Source of the DNA: Propionibacteriaceae bacterium | Lineage (GTDB): Bacteria > Actinomycetota > Actinomycetes > Propionibacteriales > Propionibacteriaceae | Length of the DNA stretch: 38,886 nt | Direction of reading: 5' to 3' | NCBI GenBank assembly: GCA_025965155.1 | Contig: JAOPXN010000018.1 | Location: forward strand, 1-38,886 | Shown here: positions 3,441 through 32,843 of the stretch, in pieces | Numbering within the stretch: position 1 is the stretch's first letter | Layout of the letters: the number at the start of each line of letters is the position of its first letter | The notes under the pieces: model-generated | What the model was told of the DNA's origin: nothing | Databases searched by the model: none | The model's input: the letters and a program-made list of their open reading frames with translations, nothing else | Made by a program: the position numbers and the translations under genes

Positions 3441-6400
3441 CTACTGGAGAGGGTTCCAGTTGTCGGTGCCAGCGAGGTACTTCTCCGGTGTGGCCTGGGC
3501 CGCCTGGGCCTCGGTCAGCTGCGGCCGGTTGGCGTTGACTCCTGCACCTGGACCGGTGTTGTTGTACTCGAAGAACCGGCCGTCCGTCCACAGGTTGGGT
3601 GACATGTCGGCCCACGGCTGGGTGCCGCGGATGGCAGCGGACAGGTCGGTGTTGCGGACGGTGACCTGACCGCGGGAGTTGTAGACGACTCCGTTCTTGG
3701 CGTACCCGTCGGTCCAGCCCCGCCACGGACGACCGAGCGAGAAGGTGTTCGGCGCTGCGTTGCTGGTGATCTTGCTGTCGATGATCAAGAAGCCGTTGGG
3801 GTTCTTATCCGACGTGCTGGCGGCAGTGATGTAGCCGTTGTTGGAGCTGCTGCCGCGGGTCAGCGCGTGGATTGTGGTGCGCTGGAACACGGCGGTGCCG
3901 CGTCCGAAGATGAAGTCCACGTCGCCTTCGATGTAGCTGTTGACGAAGTAGGACCGGGCGATTATCGGGGCGTCGGGTGAGTCGGCCAACAGGGTGTCCT
4001 GGTTGCCGAGCAGCCGGACGTTGTCGAACACGAGCCGGTCACCGGTCGTCTTCAACGCGACAGCCTGCTCGTTGCTGACCTTCAGCTCCTTGTACGAGTT
4101 TTCAATTGTGACGTCCTTGACGGTGACGTTGCTGCCGCTAACCAGGACACTCTGGCTGCCTCCCGTTCCATAGACCGCGCCGGTGGCCGGGTTGATCGTC
4201 AGTGCTGCATTGTCATATGTGAATACAACATCCTTGGCGTTGCCGGTGGTGCCGATAACTGTCACGTAGTTCTTGGAGAGGTTCATCATCTCCTTGTACG
4301 TACCGGGCTTGACCGCGATGACGGTGCGCTTCGCAGCGGTTCCGACAGGTGCAGCGTTCAGGGCTGCCTGAACGGTCGTGTACTGACCGGTTCCGTCGGC
4401 GGCAACGAGGATGTCGTGCGCCGGCAGCGGCACCCCGGCCGGCGTGGCGGTGACTGCGGCAGACGCCGGCGACTCGTTGCCGGTCTTGTCCACCGCGGTC
4501 AGCACGTAGCTGTACGCGGTGCCGTTGGCGGCGCTGCGGTCGGCGTAGGTGGTGGCCGTCAGCAGGCTGGGGTTCAGCTTGTTAGCGCCGGTCAGCGCGA
4601 CGGAGGTGCTGGTCGACCGGTACAGGTTGTATCCAGCCAGGTCGTCCTCGCCGCTGGCCTTCCAGGACAAGGAGATGCTGCTGTCGGCCGGGTCACCAGC
4701 CAGGTCGGCCGGGGCGTCCGGGGCTGTGCTGTCCGCGGGCGGCGGCGGTGGGGTCTGGCCGGTGGGGTTCCAGCCGTCGGCTCCGGCCAGGTAGGTCCAC
4801 TTCGTGTACTTCAGCGCTTCCCGGTCGCTCAGCTGCGGCCGGTCTGCGTTCACCCCGGCGCCCGCACCCGTGTTGGCGTACTCGAAGAACCGGGCGTTGC
4901 GCCACAAGGACGCAGACATGTCCGTCCACGGCACGGTCTTGATGGCCGCGGGCAGCTCGGTGTTGCGGATCACGACCTGGGCGATGGCGTTCACGTCGTT
5001 GCTGGGCTGCCATGGTCGGCCAAGGTGGAACGAGCCCGCGGGGGCATCGCTGACGATGGTGCTGTCGGTGATCAGATAGCCGTAGGTGAGGCTCTTGTCG
5101 GTGCTGGCCGCCGTGACGTAGCCATTGTTCGACGTGCTGCCGCGGGTGGCGGCCTTCAGGGTGGTCTGGTCGAATACCACCGTGCCGCGGCCGAAGATGA
5201 AGTCGACGTCACCCTCGATGTAGGAGCGGGTGTAGTACGACCGAGCCACGGCGCCGGCCTTGGGCGAGTCGGCGTACAGGGTGTCTTGGTCGCCGAGCAG
5301 CCGGACGTTGTCGAACACCAGCCGGTCACCGGTCGTCTTCAGCGCGACGGCCTGCTCGCTGCCCGTCCCTGTCTCGACGTAGGAGTTCTCGATCGTCAGG
5401 TTCTTGGTGGTGACGTTATTCGCCTTGATCAGCACCGAGGCGCTGCCGCTGGTGCCGTAGACGCCGGTGCCGTCGGGTTTGGGAGTTCCGGCGGCGTTGT
5501 CGTAGGTGATCACGACGTCGCTGGCGTTGTCGGTGGCGCCGGTCAATGTGACGTTCGGCTTGTCCACGGTCAGCAGCTCGCGATAAGTGCCCGGCTTGAT
5601 GCCGATCACGAACGGCGTCGTCGCATTGGCCGGGGCGGCGGCCAGGGCGGCGGCGACGGTGGTGTAGTCACCGCTGCCGTCCTGAGCCACGGTCAGGTCC
5701 GCGCCGAGCACGGGTGCCTTCTCCACCAGCCGAGTGCCGTCCACGGTGCCGTGCGCGGACTCGTTGCCAGCCTGGTCGACTGCGGTGACCCGGTAGAACA
5801 GCTTGGTTCCAGCGGTGGCGGTGGTGTCGCTGAAGGTGGAGGCCGTCAGCGGGTTCGCGGTCAGCTTGGTGAAGGTCCCCGACTCGGAGTCCGACCGGTA
5901 GACCAGATAGCCCGCCAGGTCGACCTCAGACTGGTCGGCCCAGTCGATGCTGACCTCGGTCATGGTGCCGACGGCGGTCAGGCCCGACGGCACGGCGGGG
6001 GCAGTGGTATCGGCGAGGGCAGCCACGGCGTCAGCAGAGCGAGCGGACTCGTTGCCGACCTTGTCCACGGCCGTGACCGCGTAGCGGTAGGCGGCGGCGT
6101 CGGCCACCGAGGCGTCGGTATAGGAGGATCCGGTCAGCACGCTCGTGGTGAGCTTGACCGCGGTGGCCGTATCCGCGCCGTCGAGCCACCGGTACACGTG
6201 GTACCCGGCCAGGTCAGCCTCCGCGGAGGCGGTCCAGGTCAGATCGATGCTGGTCTTGCCGCCCGCCGCAGAGAGACCGGTGACTGCGGCCGGAGCGACG
6301 GTGTCCGCCGGCACGAAGGCGATGCTGGTTGCAGGGGACGTGTTCCCGCTGAGGTCGATGGCGCTGACCTTGTAGTAGACCGCGCCGGCCGGGGCGCTGG

Positions 6401-8132
6401 TGTCGACGTAGCCGGAGCCGGTGAGCGGGCTGGCAGTGAGCGTGGTGTAGGTCCCGCCCGAGGTGGTGGCGCGGCTGACGACGTAGCCGGCCAGATCCGT
6501 CTCGGTGTTGTCGGCCCAGTCCAGCGTGACGCCCTCGTCGGCTGGGGCGACGGTCAGGGTGTTCGGAGCGGCCGGCGCCGCCCGGTCCTTGCGGAGGCCG
6601 CTCACCGACACGGCGACAGACTCGTTGCCAGTCCTGTCCACCGCGGTGACCCGGTAGAAGGAGGTCACGCCGGCGGGTGCCGTGGTGTCGCTGTAGTCCG
6701 AGGATGTACGTGGCGTGGCGGTCAGCTTGGTGTACTCGCCATCGACCCTGACGGACCGGTACACAAGGTAGCCGGCCAGGTCGGACTCGGTGTTGGAGGC
6801 CCAATCGAGCTTGACCCGCGAGGTGTCTCCGCTCGTGGTCATGCCCTTGATGGCTGCCGGAGCAGTGAGGTCGGGCGGCAGCACCGCGACGCTGGCCGCG
6901 GAGGAGGTGTTGCCGGACACGTCGATCGCGCTGACCTTGTAGTAGTACGCGACTCCGACGGACGCGGTGGCGTCAACGAAGGTCGACTCCGTGATCGGCG
7001 CCTCGGACAGTTTGGTGTAGGTGCCACCGGCGGTGGTGGCGCGGGTGATCACGTAGCCAGCCAAGTCGGTCTCGGTGTTGTCGGCCCAGTCCAGCGTGTT
7101 GCCGTTCTCGGTGCGGGTGCCGGCCAGGCCCTTGACTGCCGCCGGCGCCACGCCGTCCTTGCGGGTGGCGGACGCAGACACGGCCGCCGACTCGTTGCCC
7201 GTTTTGTCGACGGCGGTGACGCGGTAGAAAGACGCGACGCCGACGGGTGCGGTGGTGTCGCTGTAGTCCGAGGAAGTACGCGGGGTGGCGGTCAGCTTGG
7301 TGAAGTCGCCGTCAACCGTGGCCCCGCGGTAGACGTGGTAGCCGGCCAGGTCGGACTCGTTGTTGGAGGACCAGTCCAGCTTGATCCGCGAGGTGTCGGC
7401 GCTCGCGGTGATCCCGGCCACCGACTTGGGCGCGGTCACATCCGGCGGCAGCACGGCAACGCTTGTCGCCGAGGAGGAGTTGCCGCTGAAGTCGACCGCG
7501 CTGACCTTGTAGTAGTAGGAGCCCCCGCGGGTGGCGGCCTTGTCCTCGTAGGTGGAGGCGCTGATCGGGCTGGTGGTCAGCTTGATGTAACTGCCGCCGG
7601 CGCTGGTGGCTCGCGAGACGACGTAGCCCGCCAGGTCGGCCTCCGTGCCGTCCGCCCACTCCAGCGTGACGCTCGAGTCGGCCTGGGTGCCGCTCAGGCC
7701 CTTGACCGCGGCTGGCTTGGTGGCGTCCTTGCGGGTGCCGGCGGCGGCGGCGACCGCGGACTCGTTGCCGGTCTTGTCGACCGCTGTGACCTTGTAGTAC
7801 GACGGGAAGCCGGCCGGGGCTGTGGCGTCGGAGTAGTCCGAGCTCGTTCGCGGGGCGGTTGTCAGCTTGGCGTACTCGCCGTCCAGCGTGTTGGACCGGT
7901 AGACCAGGTAGCCAGCCAGGTCGGACTCGCTGTTGCTGGACCAGTCGAGCTTGACCTTGGACTTATCGGCGCTGGTCTTCATCCCCTTCACGGCGGCGGG
8001 CGCCGTGGTATCGGCGGCCGAGGCCGGCCCGACGCTGACCGCGAGCGTCGCAAGTGAGACGAGCAATGCGATCGAACCACGACGAGCGGCCGACCATGAA
8101 CGCGCAGAAGGCGCGCCAAAAACCTCAAGCAT
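3441..8132 (-). CDS. Secreted modular pectin methylesterase: nine FN3 modules, two catalytic domains
   Basis: A 1563-residue exported enzyme expected to remove methyl esters from homogalacturonan outside the cell. Residues 1-40 are a signal peptide. Eight FN3-like modules of about 95 residues follow (41-803), then pectinesterase domain 1 (CE8, about 804-1115), a Pro-rich linker, a ninth FN3 module (1134-1232) and pectinesterase domain 2 (about 1237-1563). Both catalytic domains keep the family residues. Domain 1 has Q927 (EQAVAL), D950 (QDTL), D977 (DFIFG) and R1039 (LGRPW). Domain 2 has Q1356, D1379, D1406 and R1468 in the same motifs. The first six FN3 modules alternate between two subtypes (A-B-A-B-A-B). 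No cell-wall sorting signal is visible at the C-terminus. The start has GGGGGAA 10 nt upstream and a structured leader. Confidence 0.93.
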   Translation of the reverse strand: MLEVFGAPSARSWSAARRGSIALLVSLATLAVSVGPASAADTTAPAAVKGMKTSADKSKVKLDWSSNSESDLAGYLVYRSNTLDGEYAKLTTAPRTSSDYSDATAPAGFPSYYKVTAVDKTGNESAVAAAAGTRKDATKPAAVKGLSGTQADSSVTLEWADGTEADLAGYVVSRATSAGGSYIKLTTSPISASTYEDKAATRGGSYYYKVSAVDFSGNSSSATSVAVLPPDVTAPKSVAGITASADTSRIKLDWSSNNESDLAGYHVYRGATVDGDFTKLTATPRTSSDYSDTTAPVGVASFYRVTAVDKTGNESAAVSASATRKDGVAPAAVKGLAGTRTENGNTLDWADNTETDLAGYVITRATTAGGTYTKLSEAPITESTFVDATASVGVAYYYKVSAIDVSGNTSSAASVAVLPPDLTAPAAIKGMTTSGDTSRVKLDWASNTESDLAGYLVYRSVRVDGEYTKLTATPRTSSDYSDTTAPAGVTSFYRVTAVDRTGNESVAVSVSGLRKDRAAPAAPNTLTVAPADEGVTLDWADNTETDLAGYVVSRATTSGGTYTTLTASPLTGSGYVDTSAPAGAVYYKVSAIDLSGNTSPATSIAFVPADTVAPAAVTGLSAAGGKTSIDLTWTASAEADLAGYHVYRWLDGADTATAVKLTTSVLTGSSYTDASVADAAAYRYAVTAVDKVGNESARSADAVAALADTTAPAVPSGLTAVGTMTEVSIDWADQSEVDLAGYLVYRSDSESGTFTKLTANPLTASTFSDTTATAGTKLFYRVTAVDQAGNESAHGTVDGTRLVEKAPVLGADLTVAQDGSGDYTTVAAALAAAPANATTPFVIGIKPGTYRELLTVDKPNVTLTGATDNASDVVITYDNAAGTPKPDGTGVYGTSGSASVLIKANNVTTKNLTIENSYVETGTGSEQAVALKTTGDRLVFDNVRLLGDQDTLYADSPKAGAVARSYYTRSYIEGDVDFIFGRGTVVFDQTTLKAATRGSTSNNGYVTAASTDKSLTYGYLITDSTIVSDAPAGSFHLGRPWQPSNDVNAIAQVVIRNTELPAAIKTVPWTDMSASLWRNARFFEYANTGAGAGVNADRPQLSDREALKYTKWTYLAGADGWNPTGQTPPPPPADSTAPDAPADLAGDPADSSISLSWKASGEDDLAGYNLYRSTSTSVALTGANKLNPSLLTATTYADRSAANGTAYSYVLTAVDKTGNESPASAAVTATPAGVPLPAHDILVAADGTGQYTTVQAALNAAPVGTAAKRTVIAVKPGTYKEMMNLSKNYVTVIGTTGNAKDVVFTYDNAALTINPATGAVYGTGGSQSVLVSGSNVTVKDVTIENSYKELKVSNEQAVALKTTGDRLVFDNVRLLGNQDTLLADSPDAPIIARSYFVNSYIEGDVDFIFGRGTAVFQRTTIHALTRGSSSNNGYITAASTSDKNPNGFLIIDSKITSNAAPNTFSLGRPWRGWTDGYAKNGVVYNSRGQVTVRNTDLSAAIRGTQPWADMSPNLWTDGRFFEYNNTGPGAGVNANRPQLTEAQAAQATPEKYLAGTDNWNPLQ

Positions 8133-11163: not shown

Positions 11164-12492
11164 TCAGCGGACCACCGTGATGTGCACGTGGTTCTTGTGG
11201 TTGGCGGAGTCGCCGCCGCGGTCGGCCATGTAGCGCCAGCCTTCACCGGACCGCCGTACGTTCCAGATGTGCTGGTTCCAGATGATGTACTGGATGCCCA
11301 GCCTCGCCTGGTTGGCCTGCGCCCAGGCCGCGATCCTGGTGCCGAGCGCCCTGCCGGACGCCGAGGTGTAGTTGGGGATCATCAGGTCCAGGGCCAGACC
11401 ACTGGGATGGTCCGGGATTGCGTCCGGGCGGACCCCGTAATAGGTGCGCACCTGCGGCCAGGCGGCCATCGCGGCGCGGTGCACCTTGATCGCGTTCACC
11501 TGCAGCCCCCGCTCCACCGCGTACGAGCCGATGGTGCCGGCGGACACGATGGTCCCCGGCCTCTTGGTCGACAGGTACCTGGCCGTCACCCATCGCACCG
11601 TGCGGTTGAAGACGATCTGTGCCCGCCCGCCGCCGGTCACCCCGGTGATGCTGAGTGCGGTACCTCTGGGAACCTCGGCTACCGTCCGTGCGCTGCTGGT
11701 ACTGCTGGAACGAATGTCGAGGGCGGTGGTCGCATAGCGCGTACCCACCACCCGGGGTAGGGCTGGTGTGCTGGGCTTGCTGGATGCCTGGTTGGACAGG
11801 TAGGCAGCGGTTACCCAGCGGGCCGCACCCCCGTAGATGATCTGCGCACGACCGTTTTGAGTAGTGCCGGTAACGGCGAGCCTGGTGCCCTTCTTGACCT
11901 CGGTCACCACCTTGAAGTCGCTGCCCGACGTGGTTCGGACGAACAGGTCGGCTGTCGCGTAGCGGATGCCGCTGGCCCGGGGCAGCCCGGACGCCGAGCT
12001 GGCGAGGTACTGCGTGCTCAGCCAGCCTCGTGCTGTGCCGTAGCTGACCTCGGCGTACCCGCGCGCGGTCTTGCCGGTGAGGGCCACCCGCGCACCGTCC
12101 CCGACGACCATGATCGCCGGGTAGGACAGGCCCGGTCCCTTGCGGAGGTTCAGTGCCGAGGTGGTCACCCTGACGCGGCCGGAGTTGACCTGGCTCGGCG
12201 CCGGGAGGCTTCTGCCCCGGGCGAGGTACTTCGTGGCGATGTACGCGGTACTCCCGACGAACCTGATCTTGGTCCAGCCATTGCTGCTGGTCAGCGCGGT
12301 TACTGTCTGTCCGCGGTAGAGCCCGCCGACGATAGCGTTCCTGGTGCTCGGTCCGGAGCGGATGTTGACGCCTTCCATGGCCGTCATCTGGGTGTCTGCG
12401 GTAGCGGTCTGGATCCCCGTCAGGCCGACCACCACACCTGCCGATGCGAGGAGGGCAGTTATCGATCTGACTGCCCGAATGGTGTTGCTCAT
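11164..12492 (-). CDS. Secreted SH3-repeat protein with peptidase-like C-terminal domain
   Basis: A 442-residue exported protein. After a signal peptide (cleavage near TATA-DT, about residue 33) come four bacterial SH3 (SH3b) modules, recognised by VNIRSGPST, LNLRKGPGL, LFVRTTSGS and LDIRSSSTS, each followed by a W(V/L)(S/T)xxYL ending. The last 110 residues match the ARB_07466-like C-terminal domain, related to VanY/M15 D,D-peptidases. Putative zinc ligands are H362 and D369 (DHPSGLALD) and the H435/H437 pair (NHVHI). A role in binding and perhaps cutting peptidoglycan is inferred. I chose the ATG at 12492 because AGGAGGAA lies six bases upstream. An upstream in-frame start would add 25 residues that do not look like a signal peptide. 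Confidence 0.85.
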   Translation of the reverse strand: MSNTIRAVRSITALLASAGVVVGLTGIQTATADTQMTAMEGVNIRSGPSTRNAIVGGLYRGQTVTALTSSNGWTKIRFVGSTAYIATKYLARGRSLPAPSQVNSGRVRVTTSALNLRKGPGLSYPAIMVVGDGARVALTGKTARGYAEVSYGTARGWLSTQYLASSASGLPRASGIRYATADLFVRTTSGSDFKVVTEVKKGTRLAVTGTTQNGRAQIIYGGAARWVTAAYLSNQASSKPSTPALPRVVGTRYATTALDIRSSSTSSARTVAEVPRGTALSITGVTGGGRAQIVFNRTVRWVTARYLSTKRPGTIVSAGTIGSYAVERGLQVNAIKVHRAAMAAWPQVRTYYGVRPDAIPDHPSGLALDLMIPNYTSASGRALGTRIAAWAQANQARLGIQYIIWNQHIWNVRRSGEGWRYMADRGGDSANHKNHVHITVVR

Positions 12493-12526
12493 GCGCGTTC
12501 CTCCTTGACGGCCTTCCCGGACCGTG

Positions 12527-12544
12527 TTTTCTGCATACAGAAAA
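12527..12544. promoter_or_regulatory. Perfect palindrome in the leader of the SH3-repeat gene
   Basis: TTTTCTG-CATA-CAGAAAA is a perfect 7-bp inverted repeat with a 4-base centre, 35-52 bp upstream of the start codon. It may be a regulator-binding site or a leader hairpin. I do not recognise a known consensus. Confidence 0.45.
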
Positions 12545-12684
12545 GCGGGTCGTCTACTTCCCCCCAATCACGCAAGTAACAACAACCTCAAACTTCCCAG
12601 GACTCTAACGGCGCCACACTGGTTACGGCAAGACGTGAGTACGGATTTGCTCAGGTTTTCAAGCGGACACGCCGAAGCACGGCA

Positions 12685-12708
12685 ATAAATTACAATGATG
12701 TGATTTAT
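12685..12708. promoter_or_regulatory. AT-rich inverted repeat
   Basis: ATAAAT (12685-12690) and ATTTAT (12703-12708) flank 12 bp in an unusually AT-rich patch of the divergent region between the SH3-repeat and metallopeptidase genes. It is a candidate operator only. Confidence 0.3.
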
Positions 12709-12745
12709 CGGCCGGCATGCCTCGTGGTCGGCTCCGGGCGCCGGT

Positions 12746-12751
12746 TAAGCT
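12746..12751 (+). promoter_or_regulatory. Candidate -10 box before a leaderless 8-codon frame
   Basis: TAAGCT fits TANNNT. Seven bases beyond it is the A of ATG at 12758, so transcription could begin at the start codon. Confidence 0.35.
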
Positions 12752-12757
12752 GTGGCC

Positions 12758-12784
12758 ATGCAGCGCATGGGTCGCCGCCCGTGA
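12758..12784 (+). CDS. Possible 8-residue leader peptide MQRMGRRP
   Basis: An ATG at 12758, where transcription is predicted to begin, opens the eight-codon frame MQRMGRRP. Its TGA (12782-12784) overlaps the GTG start (12781) of the metallopeptidase gene as GTGA. A leaderless minigene would deliver ribosomes to a start with no ribosome-binding site. This is inference from position and overlap. Confidence 0.35.
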   Translation: MQRMGRRP

Positions 12785-13131
12785 TCGAGATGGCGGCCGA
12801 AGAGTTCGAACAGCTGGTCGGGCAGGCGCTGGACCAGATCCCACCGCAGCTGGCCAACCTGATCGAGAACTGTGTGGTGTTGGTGGAGGACGACCCCCCA
12901 CCGGAGGAGCCGGATCTGCTGGGTCTCTACGATGGGGTGCCGTTGACCGAGCGCGGCACCGGGTACGCGGGCGTACTCCCGGACCGGATCTTCGTGTTCC
13001 GGAATCCGACACTCGCCATCTGCAGCACGGTCGACGACGTGGTCGACGAGGTGCATATCACCGTTGTGCACGAGATCGCGCACCACTTCGGCATTGACGA
13101 CGAGCGGCTGCACGAGCTCGGCTACGCCTGA
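12781..13131 (+). CDS. Small zincin-type metallopeptidase (PF06262-like)
   Basis: A 116-residue protein with the zinc-protease motif HEIAH at residues 97-101 (VVHEIAHHFGIDDERLHELGY). It has the usual front of the family of small actinobacterial metallopeptidases, EEFEQLVGQALDQIPPQLA. The family is commonly annotated as metallopeptidase family protein, but its substrates are unknown. There is no signal peptide, so it is probably cytosolic. The GTG at 12781 is preferred because family members begin just here (VIEMAAEEF); the ATG at 12790 is possible. No ribosome-binding site precedes it, but a tiny upstream frame overlaps its start. It is followed by a strong terminator and converges on the alcohol dehydrogenase gene. 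Confidence 0.88.
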   Translation: MIEMAAEEFEQLVGQALDQIPPQLANLIENCVVLVEDDPPPEEPDLLGLYDGVPLTERGTGYAGVLPDRIFVFRNPTLAICSTVDDVVDEVHITVVHEIAHHFGIDDERLHELGYA

Positions 13132-14290: not shown

Positions 14291-14614
14291 TCAGCGGCTC
14301 AGGGCGTACACCAGCGCTCCGATCCCGGTCACGACGAGCAGCGCGGTGACTCCGAGGTGTGCGCGCGCGTCGGCCAGCGGGGCGGCCGTGTGTAGCCTCT
14401 CCTGGTTGGTGGAGTATCGGCGCAGCGTCAGCCAGCCAAGCAGCGCAGTGATGGTGACCGCGGCGCAGCCGACGACGAGTGCGAGCAGCAGCGAGGCCGA
14501 GCTCAGCAGCCTGGCCACCACCAGTCCGCAGACCAGTCCCGACAAGGTTGTGCGCTGCCAGGCCAGCTGGGTTCTCTCGTTCTGCAGTCCCGGATCCCAG
14601 ACGCCCGGGCTCAC
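14291..14614 (-). CDS. DUF202 small membrane protein
   Basis: A 107-residue protein of the DUF202 family (PF02656), with the hallmark start [16 protein letters not shown] followed by about three membrane segments ([52 protein letters not shown]). Function is unknown; the family recurs as tandem pairs of inner-membrane proteins. Its GTG start overlaps the stop of the preceding DUF202 gene (GTGA), so the two are translationally coupled. Confidence 0.88.
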
Positions 14615-14997
14615 CGGAGTCCGACCACGACCGCGGCGATCACGGCAACCAAGATCAGGCCGCCGGTGAGGACGGCCAGCAGAGCTGAGGAGGCCAGCGG
14701 CCGGTTGAGCCGCATCGCCCGCTCGTTCCTGGCCCAGCGGGTCAGCCCGCCGATTCCACAGGTCAGACCGCAGACCACCAAGACGATGGCAGCCAGCTGC
14801 GCCTCTGCGCCGATTGTGGGCTTCAGGTCAGCCACGGCGGCGATGGCGACCCCGGCGGCCAGGAACCCCAGCCCGGTGCGGATCCAGGCCAGGAAGGTTC
14901 GTTCGTTGGCGAAGGAGAACCGGGGGTCAGGCTCGCTTCCGGTCCCGTACACACTGCGGGGCCAGCGCCGATCCCGCTCGGGAGGTGAGTCGGTCAC
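14611..14997 (-). CDS. DUF202 (YidH-like) membrane protein
   Basis: A 128-residue protein. After a polar N-terminus it has the DUF202 signature [21 protein letters not shown], then three membrane segments ([53 protein letters not shown]). It pairs with the next DUF202 gene, an arrangement common in bacteria. The GTG at 14997 is chosen because it overlaps the EamA gene stop (GTGA), and because the frame further upstream runs inside the EamA gene and is not coding. The two members differ in sequence, suggesting a heteromeric membrane protein; this is inference. Confidence 0.88.
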
Positions 14998-15881
14998 CTC
15001 AGTGATGGTAATGCGACCCGGCGCCGAAGCCGCAGGGATTGGCCCATCACCACCGAGACGCAGACCAGCACGGCGCCGAGGATCTGCCAGCTGTTGAGCG
15101 CCTGGTCCAGCACCACCCAGCCGAGGACGGCCGCCACCACCGGATTGAGCAGACCCAGGAACGTCACCGAAGCTGCCGGTAGCCGCTTCAGCGCCCAGAA
15201 CCAGATCGCGTACGCGGCGATGCCGCTGACCGCAACCAGATAAACCAGCCCGGCAACATTGCGAGTGCTGAGCTGGCTCGGCAGCCCCTCCAGGGCCAGG
15301 GTGAAAGGCAGCAAGGTCAGACCGCCGAGCAGGAACAGCCATCCGGTGAACCCGGGCGCGCTCATCCCGGGAGGGTGTCCCCATCGCTTGGTCAGGACCG
15401 TCGCGATGCCCATCATCACTACGCAGGTGACCATCGCCAGCACACCCCAGAGGTCCAGGGCGGCGGTTGAGCGTAAGACCAGCAACGAAACGCCCAGCAC
15501 ACCTATCAGACCGGCCACGATCTGGACCGGTCTGATCTTCATTCCGAGCCAGGGCACCGACAAGATCACCACGATGATGGGCGTCAGTGAGTTGATCACC
15601 GACGCGACCCCGCCCGGCAGCCGGTACGCGGCCACGAAGTGCAGCGGGAAGAATGCCGAGCAGTAGAGCACCGACAGCAGAGCGAACCGTAGCCGCCAGC
15701 CAGGAGGTGGAAGCCGGGTGCCGATGATCAGCACCAGCCCGGTCGGCAGTGCACGCATGGTCGCAGCAAGCATCGGTCGATCCGGCGGAAGGAACTGTGT
15801 CGTCAGCAGGTACGTGGTGCCGAAGATGACCGGTGACACGACGGCCAGGTAGGCCCAGCGGCGGTCGTTCAGCCGGCTCAC
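14994..15881 (-). CDS. EamA-family (drug/metabolite transporter) permease
   Basis: A 295-residue integral membrane protein with about ten hydrophobic helices in two EamA repeats. The second begins near FTGWLFLLGGLTLLPF and contains the typical AVSGIAAYAIWFWALKRL and LGWVVLDQALNSWQILGAVL segments. Members export amino acids or metabolites; the substrate cannot be told. The GTG start lies 37 bp after the apical-domain gene and has no obvious ribosome-binding site. Its stop overlaps the next gene (GTGA). Confidence 0.88.
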   Translation of the reverse strand: MSRLNDRRWAYLAVVSPVIFGTTYLLTTQFLPPDRPMLAATMRALPTGLVLIIGTRLPPPGWRLRFALLSVLYCSAFFPLHFVAAYRLPGGVASVINSLTPIIVVILSVPWLGMKIRPVQIVAGLIGVLGVSLLVLRSTAALDLWGVLAMVTCVVMMGIATVLTKRWGHPPGMSAPGFTGWLFLLGGLTLLPFTLALEGLPSQLSTRNVAGLVYLVAVSGIAAYAIWFWALKRLPAASVTFLGLLNPVVAAVLGWVVLDQALNSWQILGAVLVCVSVVMGQSLRLRRRVALPSLR

Positions 15882-15918: not shown

Positions 15919-16662
15919 TCAGGCGGAACCGGTGGGTTGGTCGCTGGCGGCTTCGGAGGGCGCGGGGGTGTGGTGCTCGTCGGCGATGAGGTGACTGCTG
16001 CTCCGGTCACTGACCCAGACGCCGGTCCGGCCCAGGTGCGTCGGCAGCACATACCCCGACTGCAGGTCCGACCGGTTCAGCCGCGCGGCGCCGGTGGCCT
16101 CCTCGATCGCCGCGAGGTCCGCCGGATCGGTCGCGACCACGGCGAGCAGTCTCATCAGTCCGCGGATCTGGTTGACCTCCAAGGTGGCCAGCACCTCCGG
16201 CGCCAGCTCCGGCGCGACCAGGACCAGCGGCGTTCGGCTCATGATGATCTTTTCTAGCACCGGCAGCAGCTCCCGTACCGAATCGACGCGCTCGGCGCAG
16301 AGCAGCACCCGTGGCCCGGTCAGCACCGCCCAGCCGGAGGCACGGTCGGTGACGAAGTCGCGGGAGGCGTACCCGACCTCGACTGTGGTCGTGGTCGGCG
16401 CCGCAATCTCCTCGGTGAGCGTCCGTCGCTCCGCTGCGGTCAGCACGGCAGCCGGCTCGGCCGGGGCGCGCCGTGCCTGCAGCTCGGACAGGTAGTGCGG
16501 CGTGGCCGCGTCGGGGCGGAACTGCGGGATGGTTCGCTGCGGGGCGGCGAGCATCTCCCGCGCTGCCCGCTGGTTCTTGCGCCGGTCGGACAGCGCACCG
16601 AAGACGATGACGGCCAGGCCCACCACCACGATGGCGACCAGCCCGACAGTCCACGGGTCCAT
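15919..16662 (-). CDS. Membrane-anchored stand-alone GroEL apical-domain-like protein
   Basis: A 247-residue protein. Residues 4-24 are one membrane helix (GLVAIVVVGLAVIVFG within it), followed by a basic stop (DRRKNQR) and a polar linker to about 90. Residues about 97-226 read like the GroEL substrate-binding apical domain in unbroken order: GYASRDF at 97 (GroEL GYLSPYF), RELLPVLE at 130 (REMLPVLE), LATLEVNQIRG at 158 (LATLVVNTMRG), AVVATDPADLAAIEEATGA, then LGRTGVWVSDRSSSHLI at 210 (LGQAKRVVINKDTTTII). The equatorial ATPase and intermediate domains are absent. The expected topology puts the domain in the cytoplasm, because the residues flanking the C-terminal side of the helix are basic. 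The ATG at 16662 has only a weak site (TGAAG). It is divergent from the DUF1992 gene and first in the operon leading to EamA, DUF202 and alcohol dehydrogenase genes. A client-binding or tethering role is inference. Confidence 0.8.
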   Translation of the reverse strand: MDPWTVGLVAIVVVGLAVIVFGALSDRRKNQRAAREMLAAPQRTIPQFRPDAATPHYLSELQARRAPAEPAAVLTAAERRTLTEEIAAPTTTTVEVGYASRDFVTDRASGWAVLTGPRVLLCAERVDSVRELLPVLEKIIMSRTPLVLVAPELAPEVLATLEVNQIRGLMRLLAVVATDPADLAAIEEATGAARLNRSDLQSGYVLPTHLGRTGVWVSDRSSSHLIADEHHTPAPSEAASDQPTGSA

Positions 16663-16745
16663 GGACTTCAGCCTGCCACACGGGGATCTCAAGCTGGCCT
16701 GGCTCAGCCGCATCGTTCACCGTGTCCGGTGCTGGGGCCGCGATT

Positions 16746-16758: not shown

Positions 16759-17151
16759 GTGACTCCGTTCGAATCCTGGATCGACCGTCAGATCCGTGAG
16801 GCGCAGGAGCGCGGCGAGTTCGACAACCTTTCCGGAGCCGGCAAGCCGATCAAGGGCTTGAACGGCCGCGACGACGAGAACTGGTGGGTCAAGAACCTGA
16901 TGGAGCGGGAGAACCTCAAGCCGATGCTGCCTGGATCGCTTGCGCTCCGAAAGGAGGTCGAGGACCTACCGACCACGGTCGCCGATATCCGTATCGAGGA
17001 GCACGTCCGGGAGGTCGCGGAGGACCTGAACCACCGGATTCGGGACTCCCGCCGGCGCAAAGTGGATGGCCCGGCGCTCTTCATCAACACCGTCGACGTT
17101 GACGCCGTGGTCGAGCAGTGGCGTCATCAGCGTGAGGATCGGGCGGACTAA
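16759..17151 (+). CDS. DUF1992 / DnaJ-C28 conserved-domain protein
   Basis: A 130-residue cytoplasmic protein that begins MTPFESWIDRQIREAQERGE and continues FDNLSGAGKPI. This is the diagnostic start of the DnaJ homologue subfamily C member 28 conserved domain (PF09350, as in E. coli YhdN). The middle (ENWWVKNLMERENLKPMLPG) and the helical C-terminus also fit. It has no J domain, and the biochemical role is unknown. The start is the GTG at 16759, because family members begin here and upstream sequence overlaps the divergent promoter. It is probably leaderless. It diverges from the apical-domain gene. Confidence 0.9.
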   Translation: MTPFESWIDRQIREAQERGEFDNLSGAGKPIKGLNGRDDENWWVKNLMERENLKPMLPGSLALRKEVEDLPTTVADIRIEEHVREVAEDLNHRIRDSRRRKVDGPALFINTVDVDAVVEQWRHQREDRAD

Positions 17152-31370: not shown

Positions 31371-32843
31371 GTGCGCCCTGCTGGCTCGCGCGCCCGCGCC
31401 CGCTCGTTTCGGTCCCTGATGACCGTCCTCGCCCTGTCCCTCGCGGTGCTGGTCAGCGGCACCGGCCTTGCCGCTGCCGGTCCGGTGATCGCAACCGTCC
31501 TCACCATCAAGGCGCCGGCCTCGGTCGCCGCAGGTAAGTCCGCCAAGATCAGCGGCACCCTGTCCACCGGTGCCTCCAAGCTGGCCGCGGCGCCCGTCGC
31601 CCTCCGCTGGCGTACCGTCGGAACCTCCACCTGGAAGGGATCCGCCGTGGCCACGACCTCAAGCAAGGGCGTCTGGTCGGCAAAGGTCCCGGTCACGGTG
31701 AACACGGAGTTTCAAGCACAGTTCGCGGGTACCGCCGCCACACCGGCGAGCACCAGCGCCGTCGTGACCACGTCCGCGGTGCAGTCGATCAAGGTCACCA
31801 CAGTGTCGCCGATCCGGCCGGCCATCGGTCAGGTCCTCACCGTGACCGGTACCGCCTCGGCAGCTCTGCGTGGCCGGACCGTCAGCCTCCAGCGCAGCCG
31901 GTTCGGCACCTGGACCACCGTCGCGAAGAGCGCCGTCTCGGCTGAGGGAACCTATACGGCAAAGATCCGGGTGGCCGACGCGTCGGCGTACGTGCTGCGG
32001 GTCCGCAGTGGCGCGACCAAGTCGATCAGCCGTGCCACCAGCGTCACCCGGACCGTCTATGTCGCGGTGACCGCGACCCTCGGCACCGGCAAAAAGCTGG
32101 CCGGTCGCCGGGTGCTGACCTCACCCAACGGGCTGTACAACGCCACCATGCAACGCGACGGCAACCTGTCGGTCAAGAACAGCACCGGCGCCACCCTGTG
32201 GTCATCCGGTACCGCCGGCAAAGGCGCTGCGTTGACCATGGGCGTCGACGGCAACCTCGTCCTCGCCGCCAAAGCAGGAGAACTGTGGTCCACTAAGACT
32301 GCGGGCAGCGCCGCCGTGCTGGTGATGCAGAATGACGGCAACCTGGTGGTGTTCAACCGGGGCAAGTCCCTCTGGTCCTCAACCAAGGGCACCACCGCCC
32401 GAGTGCGGCCCGCCGCCTGCTGGTCGCTCACGTTCGACTGCATCAGCTTCAGCAGCTACAAGCCGAGCATCAGCTACTGGGCCATGTACGCCGGTCACAA
32501 CTGCACCAACTACGTCGCCTACCGCATGATCAGCAAGGGTGTGACCAAGTCACCGTGGGGGCTCCCCGGCGGCTCTGCCTGGCAGTGGCGCGCCAACGCT
32601 AAGAAGGTGAAGATCAAGGTCGACACCAACCCGACCGTCGGGTCCGTCATCCAGTGGAACCGCAACACCAACGGTGGTGGCCGCAGCGGTCACGTCGCCT
32701 ACGTGGAGCGAGTAACCGACACCTCGATCTTGATCAGCGAGGACAGCTGGAGCGGCAACAGCGCGGTCCGGACCATTCGCCGCGACAGTGCGACGTTCGC
32801 CAGCGCACGCTTCATCCACATCAAGGACTCCGGTAGCGCGTAG
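31371..32843 (+). CDS. Secreted CHAP-domain peptidoglycan hydrolase with bulb-type lectin domain
   Basis: A 490-residue exported protein. Residues 1-36 are a signal peptide. Two Ig-like or Big-type beta modules follow (about 40-130 and 135-225), then a bulb-type mannose-binding lectin domain (about 230-340) with NATMQRDGNLSV, LTMGVDGNLVL and LVMQNDGNLVVF (QxDGNLVxY-like sites). The C-terminal CHAP domain (about 360-485) has Cys378 in HNCTNYVAY and His441 in SGHVAYVE, the expected catalytic pair. CHAP enzymes cut peptidoglycan as amidases or endopeptidases, here presumably outside the cell. The GTG start follows AGGAG and a strong leader hairpin. It converges closely on the monooxygenase gene. 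Confidence 0.88.
   Translation: MRPAGSRARARSFRSLMTVLALSLAVLVSGTGLAAAGPVIATVLTIKAPASVAAGKSAKISGTLSTGASKLAAAPVALRWRTVGTSTWKGSAVATTSSKGVWSAKVPVTVNTEFQAQFAGTAATPASTSAVVTTSAVQSIKVTTVSPIRPAIGQVLTVTGTASAALRGRTVSLQRSRFGTWTTVAKSAVSAEGTYTAKIRVADASAYVLRVRSGATKSISRATSVTRTVYVAVTATLGTGKKLAGRRVLTSPNGLYNATMQRDGNLSVKNSTGATLWSSGTAGKGAALTMGVDGNLVLAAKAGELWSTKTAGSAAVLVMQNDGNLVVFNRGKSLWSSTKGTTARVRPAACWSLTFDCISFSSYKPSISYWAMYAGHNCTNYVAYRMISKGVTKSPWGLPGGSAWQWRANAKKVKIKVDTNPTVGSVIQWNRNTNGGGRSGHVAYVERVTDTSILISEDSWSGNSAVRTIRRDSATFASARFIHIKDSGSA

Follow-up and report, generated by a model that had tools for sequence, protein, structure and literature searches.

A stretch of 38,886 nucleotides from a Propionibacteriaceae bacterium (contig JAOPXN010000018.1), called the window here at its full length, was analyzed with regard to one gene on the reverse strand (15919..16662, -), which encodes a putatively membrane-anchored protein with a lone GroEL apical domain. 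The open reading frame (ORF) started with the ATG at 16662 and comprised 247 amino acids plus the stop codon; an alternative ATG at 16713 would lengthen the ORF, and the homologues aligned from the MDPW-type start. The G+C content by codon position was 73/52/89%, which indicated a real coding gene in G+C-rich DNA. A scan for promoters and terminators returned nothing. The protein began with a predicted membrane helix (16591..16650, -; about residues 5-24), followed by a conserved D26 and then a cluster of K and R, and the predicted model had a helix at residues 3-38. The juxtamembrane linker of residues 27-90 (16393..16584, -) contained a P-x-Y motif at residues 55-57 (16492-16500), and the apical domain of residues 91-231 (15970..16392, -) was equivalent to GroEL 192-336. 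Within this domain, the predicted model and the alignment placed an equivalent of GroEL helix H at residues 129-142 (16237..16278, -), where L133 and L136 correspond to L234 and L237, and an equivalent of helix I was located at residues 155-166 (16165..16200, -), where L158, E162, V163 and N164 correspond to L259, V263, V264 and N265. Passages of PMC4973282 delimit these helices in GroEL as 234-243 (H) and 256-268 (I).

The homology of the lone domain to the apical domain (191-336) of type I chaperonins (GroEL/Cpn60) was fully supported by sequence comparison and predicted fold. The NCBIfam models NF000592 (GroEL) and NF038369 matched the protein with E=7.7e-19 and 3.1e-13, and a phmmer search against the PDB recovered many solved GroELs, the best of which (E=8e-15) paired query residues 72-179 with 129-236 of 1sjp (M. 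tuberculosis chaperonin 60.2). The NF000592 match spanned only positions 171-277 of 524 and scored 67.5 against a cut-off of 397. Pfam Cpn60_TCP1 stayed under its cut-off (E=0.14), as did the best Pfam match, DUF4381 (E=0.021, membrane part only, 15.5 against 27.2 bits), so that the relation to GroEL would be missed by Pfam alone. Membership in DUF4381 or in the Rv0361-type membrane proteins of NCBIfam (13.8 against 37 bits) was rejected because both scores lay below the curated cut-offs. In the predicted-fold searches, all 50 matches listed per search were GroEL-type chaperonins or their apical domains, by which a chance resemblance or another fold was ruled out. The earlier note, made from the letters of the window, had proposed the apical identity and had named a model off the apical fold, or profiles favouring another fold, as outcomes that would speak against it; neither was found, and the identity survived. 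A stand-alone apical fold without ATPase was seen in the predicted models of both the window protein and a distant family member. A phage gene was also considered and rejected (the PHROGs matches were a phage GroEL with E=8.3e-08 and another with 0.41), and so was a defence gene, the sole PADLOC match being AbiEii (E=0.011, residues 16-100), which was taken as chance.

For the limits of the domain, residues were related to GroEL by an offset of 101, derived from the match of 72-179 on 173-280 of 548-residue GroEL chains. Sequence similarity began at residue 72 (GroEL about 173), within the intermediate-domain stretch, and residues 76-87 were helical in the predicted model; among the 50 structural matches listed, one started at model residue 80 and all others no earlier than 82. 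At the other end, the apical domain stopped near residue 231, corresponding to GroEL 336. The end at GroEL 375 given in the earlier note was corrected to 336, and similarity already started at residue 72. No equatorial ATPase domain was present in the 247 residues, and no intermediate (hinge) domain apart from the short similarity from residue 72, as had been claimed before: the short NF000592 match spoke against the former, and the structural matches listed, none of which began before residue 80, spoke against the latter. Because the equatorial domain is missing, the protein would act independently of ATP, in line with the earlier suggestion. Compared to GroEL, the lone protein thus lacked the equatorial and intermediate domains and carried one predicted membrane helix.

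These limits were nearly identical to those of engineered minichaperones (191-345; Thermus 192-336), which, like the lone protein, have no ATPase. Passages of PMC9138447 describe minichaperones (GroEL 191-345) as monomers with an ATP-independent refolding activity on rhodanese and cyclophilin A. The engineered versions are soluble monomeric laboratory fragments, whereas the lone protein is natural, predicted to be membrane-anchored and partly charged in its groove. Minichaperone fragments are partly active when expressed in E. coli. Minichaperones are known as laboratory fragments. In the open full-text literature searched (best matches, by titles and starts of abstracts; the collection has few subscription papers and no bioRxiv preprints), neither a natural stand-alone bacterial apical domain nor an organism making its own minichaperone was found. 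Variant chaperonins, such as the actinobacterial second GroEL and chlamydial GroEL2/GroEL3, have divergent apical domains too, but are full-length.

A survey of genomes and neighbours, proposed in the earlier note, was carried out with alignment A1 as query. The bacterial family of the window was represented by 198 genomes, and at E<=1e-29 the lone gene was detected in 131 of them (102 of 141 good assemblies, 21 of 29 genera) and not in the other 67 (39 good ones). Ribosomal protein L17 from one genome of a genus in this family was most similar to PDB 8crx (Cutibacterium acnes), which makes Propionibacteriaceae the likely family. This threshold was set to exclude full GroELs, whose best matches reached 8.2e-28 in the family and 3.1e-29 in a class sample, and the family count is slightly low, as the genome G085 carries the lone gene (L067) at 2.5e-28 and was scored as a miss. 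In a phylum sample, one of 396 genomes matched at E<=1e-29, namely the window's own, although more diverged members outside the family could score worse. Fifteen genomes outside the family gave extra matches; among those listed at E<=0.001, none started before model position 76, and, being without the membrane helix, they were read as GroELs or contig-edge pieces. A single-protein search matched 56 of 57 genomes since full GroELs match too, and was not used as a count; a single-protein scan of genome contigs gave one locus in a named genome, over residues 72-177 only. The gene was single-copy in 130 of the 131 genomes. Only G360 had two copies (G360:C93:102-770 and G360:C71:1956-2582), the first with E 1.7e-79, far above the others listed for its genus, and the second with 6.3e-42; contamination or transfer may account for the pair.

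For residue counts, 93 distinct sequences were reduced to 88 by dropping the GroELs L088, L097 and L098 and the wrong-start entries L139 and L143; the set covers part of the genomes with the lone gene, and rows were cut at 250 amino acids. A hydrophobic N-terminal segment was present in 88/88 (mean hydropathy at least 1.79). Ahead of it, 86 sequences had no K or R and two had one, while 2-7 K/R followed within 15 residues after the segment in all of them. The window protein showed the same arrangement, with a short MDPW tip without K or R, the hydrophobic segment and then a K/R-rich stretch. From this distribution of charges, the domain was predicted to be cytoplasmic by the positive-inside rule. 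The single membrane helix of the earlier note was thereby upheld as a prediction; the lone apical domain appears to be membrane-anchored on the cytoplasmic side rather than a soluble monomer.

The ratio dN/dS was 0.11-0.42 in the 25 closest pairs (simple counting method), by which the gene is under purifying selection and belongs to a conserved family rather than being a broken groEL. Two complete groELs lay on other contigs of the window's own genome. Over residues 92-228, the lone protein was identical to them at 47/137 and 46/137 positions, compared with 99/137 between the two groELs. A frameshifted or decaying groEL was rejected on both grounds, the intact groELs elsewhere and the purifying selection. 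In a tree, 20 lone proteins stood together on one side of a supported branch; with one row mistranslated, only actinobacterial GroELs included and long branches for the lone proteins, this tree is unfit for questions of origin.

The binding face was compared with 35 GroELs (the best match per sampled genome and the two of the window's genome) at eight groove positions, a set that draws on the list of the earlier note. The window protein retained six of the eight: Y98, F103, L133, L136, L158 and V163 stand at GroEL Y199, F204, L234, L237, L259 and V264, and D102 and E162 replace Y203 and V263, all as originally read. Across the 88 sequences, the L234 equivalent was L in 69 and another large hydrophobic in 18, the L237 equivalent L in 67 and I/V in 17, the F204 equivalent F in 76 and L in 10, the L259 equivalent L in 57, and the V264 equivalent A in 46 and V in 38. 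The N265 equivalent (N164) was N in 88/88. Passages of PMC3514286 name L234, L237 and V264 as the contacts of the GroES IVL tripeptide and report that the substitution N265A abolishes GroES binding and spares substrate binding. The Y203 and V263 positions were mostly changed across the family, the Y203 equivalent being D in 33, A in 16, R in 11, G in 9 and E in 8, and the V263 equivalent A in 31, E in 26 and R in 8. Bulky hydrophobics at the eight positions averaged 5.14 in the lone family and 7.86 in the GroELs, and at least one charge was found there in 72/88 lone sequences and 0/35 GroELs. The lone family also had conserved sites of its own, different from GroEL, including a D-L-Q-A-G-Y site and W216: D199 was kept in 80 of the 88, G203 in 85, W216 in 77 and R130 in 80, and outside the apical domain P55 in 83, Y57 in 85 and D26 after the helix in 87.

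The lone genes also differed from groEL in regulation. With the CIRCE consensus as the pattern, the operator was found before 34 of 35 groELs with 1-3 mismatches (up to 1000 nt scanned). Within about 360 nt before the 88 lone genes there was no CIRCE, the best site having 7 mismatches, no better than in shuffled sequence, where the best had 6. The lone gene is therefore probably outside the HrcA-type regulon, and co-regulation with groE was rejected.

Based on these results, we consider it about 45% probable that the protein is a ring-less, ATP-free apical module binding a dedicated partner at the membrane. In an ancestor of the family, the apical domain of a groEL (about GroEL 191-336) would have lost its connection to the ATPase and hinge domains and come to follow a single membrane helix, with mainly vertical inheritance afterwards, to which the stable position and single copy of the gene point. 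The helix would lie N-out/C-in, with the domain exposed to the cytoplasm at the membrane surface, and the groove between the H- and I-equivalent helices, less hydrophobic than that of GroEL and partly charged, would serve as the grip. It would hold a short segment of a dedicated partner, for instance a protein of the membrane or envelope, or the tail of one, and would not serve as a general binder of unfolded chains. Several points weigh against this proposal. There is no constant operon partner, the pair of DUF202 genes described below being downstream in only 9 of 61 loci. Moreover, the conserved hydrophobics may serve packing, the groove (mean entropy 1.78 bits) being hardly better conserved than other positions near-invariant in GroEL (2.04 bits, with one of the 35 GroEL rows mistranslated), and such conservation data are compatible both with a groove in use and with one out of use. 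More tentatively, the protein could be a true natural minichaperone, a resident of the membrane that, needing neither ring nor ATP, is dedicated to a segment of a membrane protein as its chaperone or receptor; in a bolder variant, the P-x-Y motif of the linker would act as a tethered self-ligand, occupying the groove and giving way to an incoming client.

Among the alternatives, it is unlikely, if worth serious thought, that the groove no longer binds and that the domain was reused as a scaffold, with the D199-L-x-A-G-Y/W216/R130 face or the P-x-Y motif assembling with envelope proteins. D199, G203, W216, R130, Y57 and P55 were among the most conserved residues and are rare or absent there in GroEL, several positions near-invariant in GroEL varied freely in the lone family, and reuse of this kind has a precedent in the CCT-gamma apical-like domain of PIKfyve/Fab1, which is likewise used outside a chaperonin according to passages of PMC8758139. 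That domain differs from the lone protein in its type II chaperonin lineage and in being part of a eukaryotic lipid kinase of 2098 residues. The hydrophobics at 133 and 136 and N164 were nearly always kept, which speaks for a working groove, though packing could explain it.

Also doubtful, and weakly disfavoured by the partly charged groove and the missing groE operator, is the holdase of the earlier note, a general one that, without ATP, would bind a wide range of membrane proteins, unfolded or still being synthesised, by their exposed hydrophobic stretches on the inner side of the membrane. The predicted models match the minichaperone core almost exactly, the window protein keeps most of the groove residues, and, in the absence of ATP, apical domains on their own suppress aggregation and can refold rhodanese (passages of PMC9138447 and PMC4973282). 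In the family, however, the Y203 and V263 equivalents were mostly polar, charged or small, a charged groove prevailed, CIRCE was missing, and the gene was missed in 67 of 198 genomes, including 39 of the 141 good ones, at the threshold used. A single tethered domain also lacks the avidity of the ring.

Much less probable is a modulator of GroES/GroEL at the membrane, in which the domain would bind the GroES mobile loop and recruit or sequester GroES. The positions contacting GroES were among the better kept (the N265 equivalent in 88/88, V or A at V264 in 84/88), but the same positions may be structural, and Ala stood at V264 in more than half of the sequences. A single apical domain should moreover bind GroES weakly without seven-fold avidity. 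A functionless, decaying groEL fragment or annotation artefact can be practically dismissed: a third of the family genomes gave no match at the threshold used and divergence was fast, but the low dN/dS of the closest pairs, the same architecture in 88/88 and the same downstream neighbour in 54 of 61 loci contradict it.

Whatever the ligand of the proposed membrane-bound module, the alignment of 88 sequences reveals what selection preserves of the GroEL binding face in the absence of ring, lid and ATP. Given the distribution in the family, relatives offer a way to test what use a lone apical domain has.

The neighbourhood was read at 61 loci, some of which stop early at contig ends (L133, L135 and L155 at about 6 kb). 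The most constant neighbour was a gene for a bacterial SH3-repeat protein (11164..12567, -; PF08239 E=9.7e-35), which lay no further than 6 kb away at 56 of the 61 loci, at 54 of them downstream and on the same strand. In 13 loci inspected, it mostly seemed to have its own upstream stretch, which suggests a shared position with the lone gene and is no proof of an operon. The SH3-repeat protein contained four bacterial SH3 repeats, and its C-terminal part matched PDB 9flh, 'LysM domain-containing protein' (E=1.5e-13), and showed an HxxGxAxD/HxH pattern, which we take to be that of M15-type zinc peptidases. Between the apical and SH3 genes of L137, L149 and L151, repeats of the type AACCTCAA(C/G) were found at a spacing of 13-20 nt; they may be a site for a regulator ahead of the SH3-repeat gene.

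A gene with the DUF1992/DnaJ-C28 conserved domain lay divergent to the lone gene (16759..17151, +; PF09350 E=6.2e-22). The DnaJ-C28-like neighbour of the earlier note was therefore a real gene, but it adjoined the lone gene in only 7 of 61 loci, as a neighbour in this lineage only, by which a functional meaning of the arrangement was not supported and a chaperone partnership was rejected. Next downstream of the lone gene was a gene for an EamA-family transporter (14994..15881, -), found in only 2 of 61 loci, followed by two genes for DUF202 membrane proteins, the first at 14611..14995 (-; PF02656 E=1.7e-16, start uncertain) and the second at 14291..14614 (-; PF02656 E=2.2e-13). L019 had a single open frame of 375 amino acids spanning both the apical gene and a DUF202 gene, through either a fusion or a sequencing error.

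A Zincin_1 metallopeptidase-like gene (12700..13131, +; PF06262 E=7.2e-33) was a frequent neighbour, lying within 6 kb of the lone gene at 27 of the 61 loci and usually encoded on the other strand. At the Zincin_1 loci of eight genomes, four from other families of the order and four from the same family, there was no lone gene; one of the eight, G085 (L182), carries it elsewhere. In L137, L149, L151 and L159, tRNA-Lys stood on one side of the lone-gene locus and tRNA-Glu, tRNA-Asp and tRNA-Phe on the other, and the same four tRNAs surrounded the Zincin_1 gene in the outgroup genome L174. Elsewhere in the window, 3441-8132 (-) encoded an unusually long protein of 1563 amino acids with a pectinesterase domain, and 31371-32843 (+) encoded a likely cell-wall hydrolase with a CHAP domain and a B-lectin match just under the cut-off.
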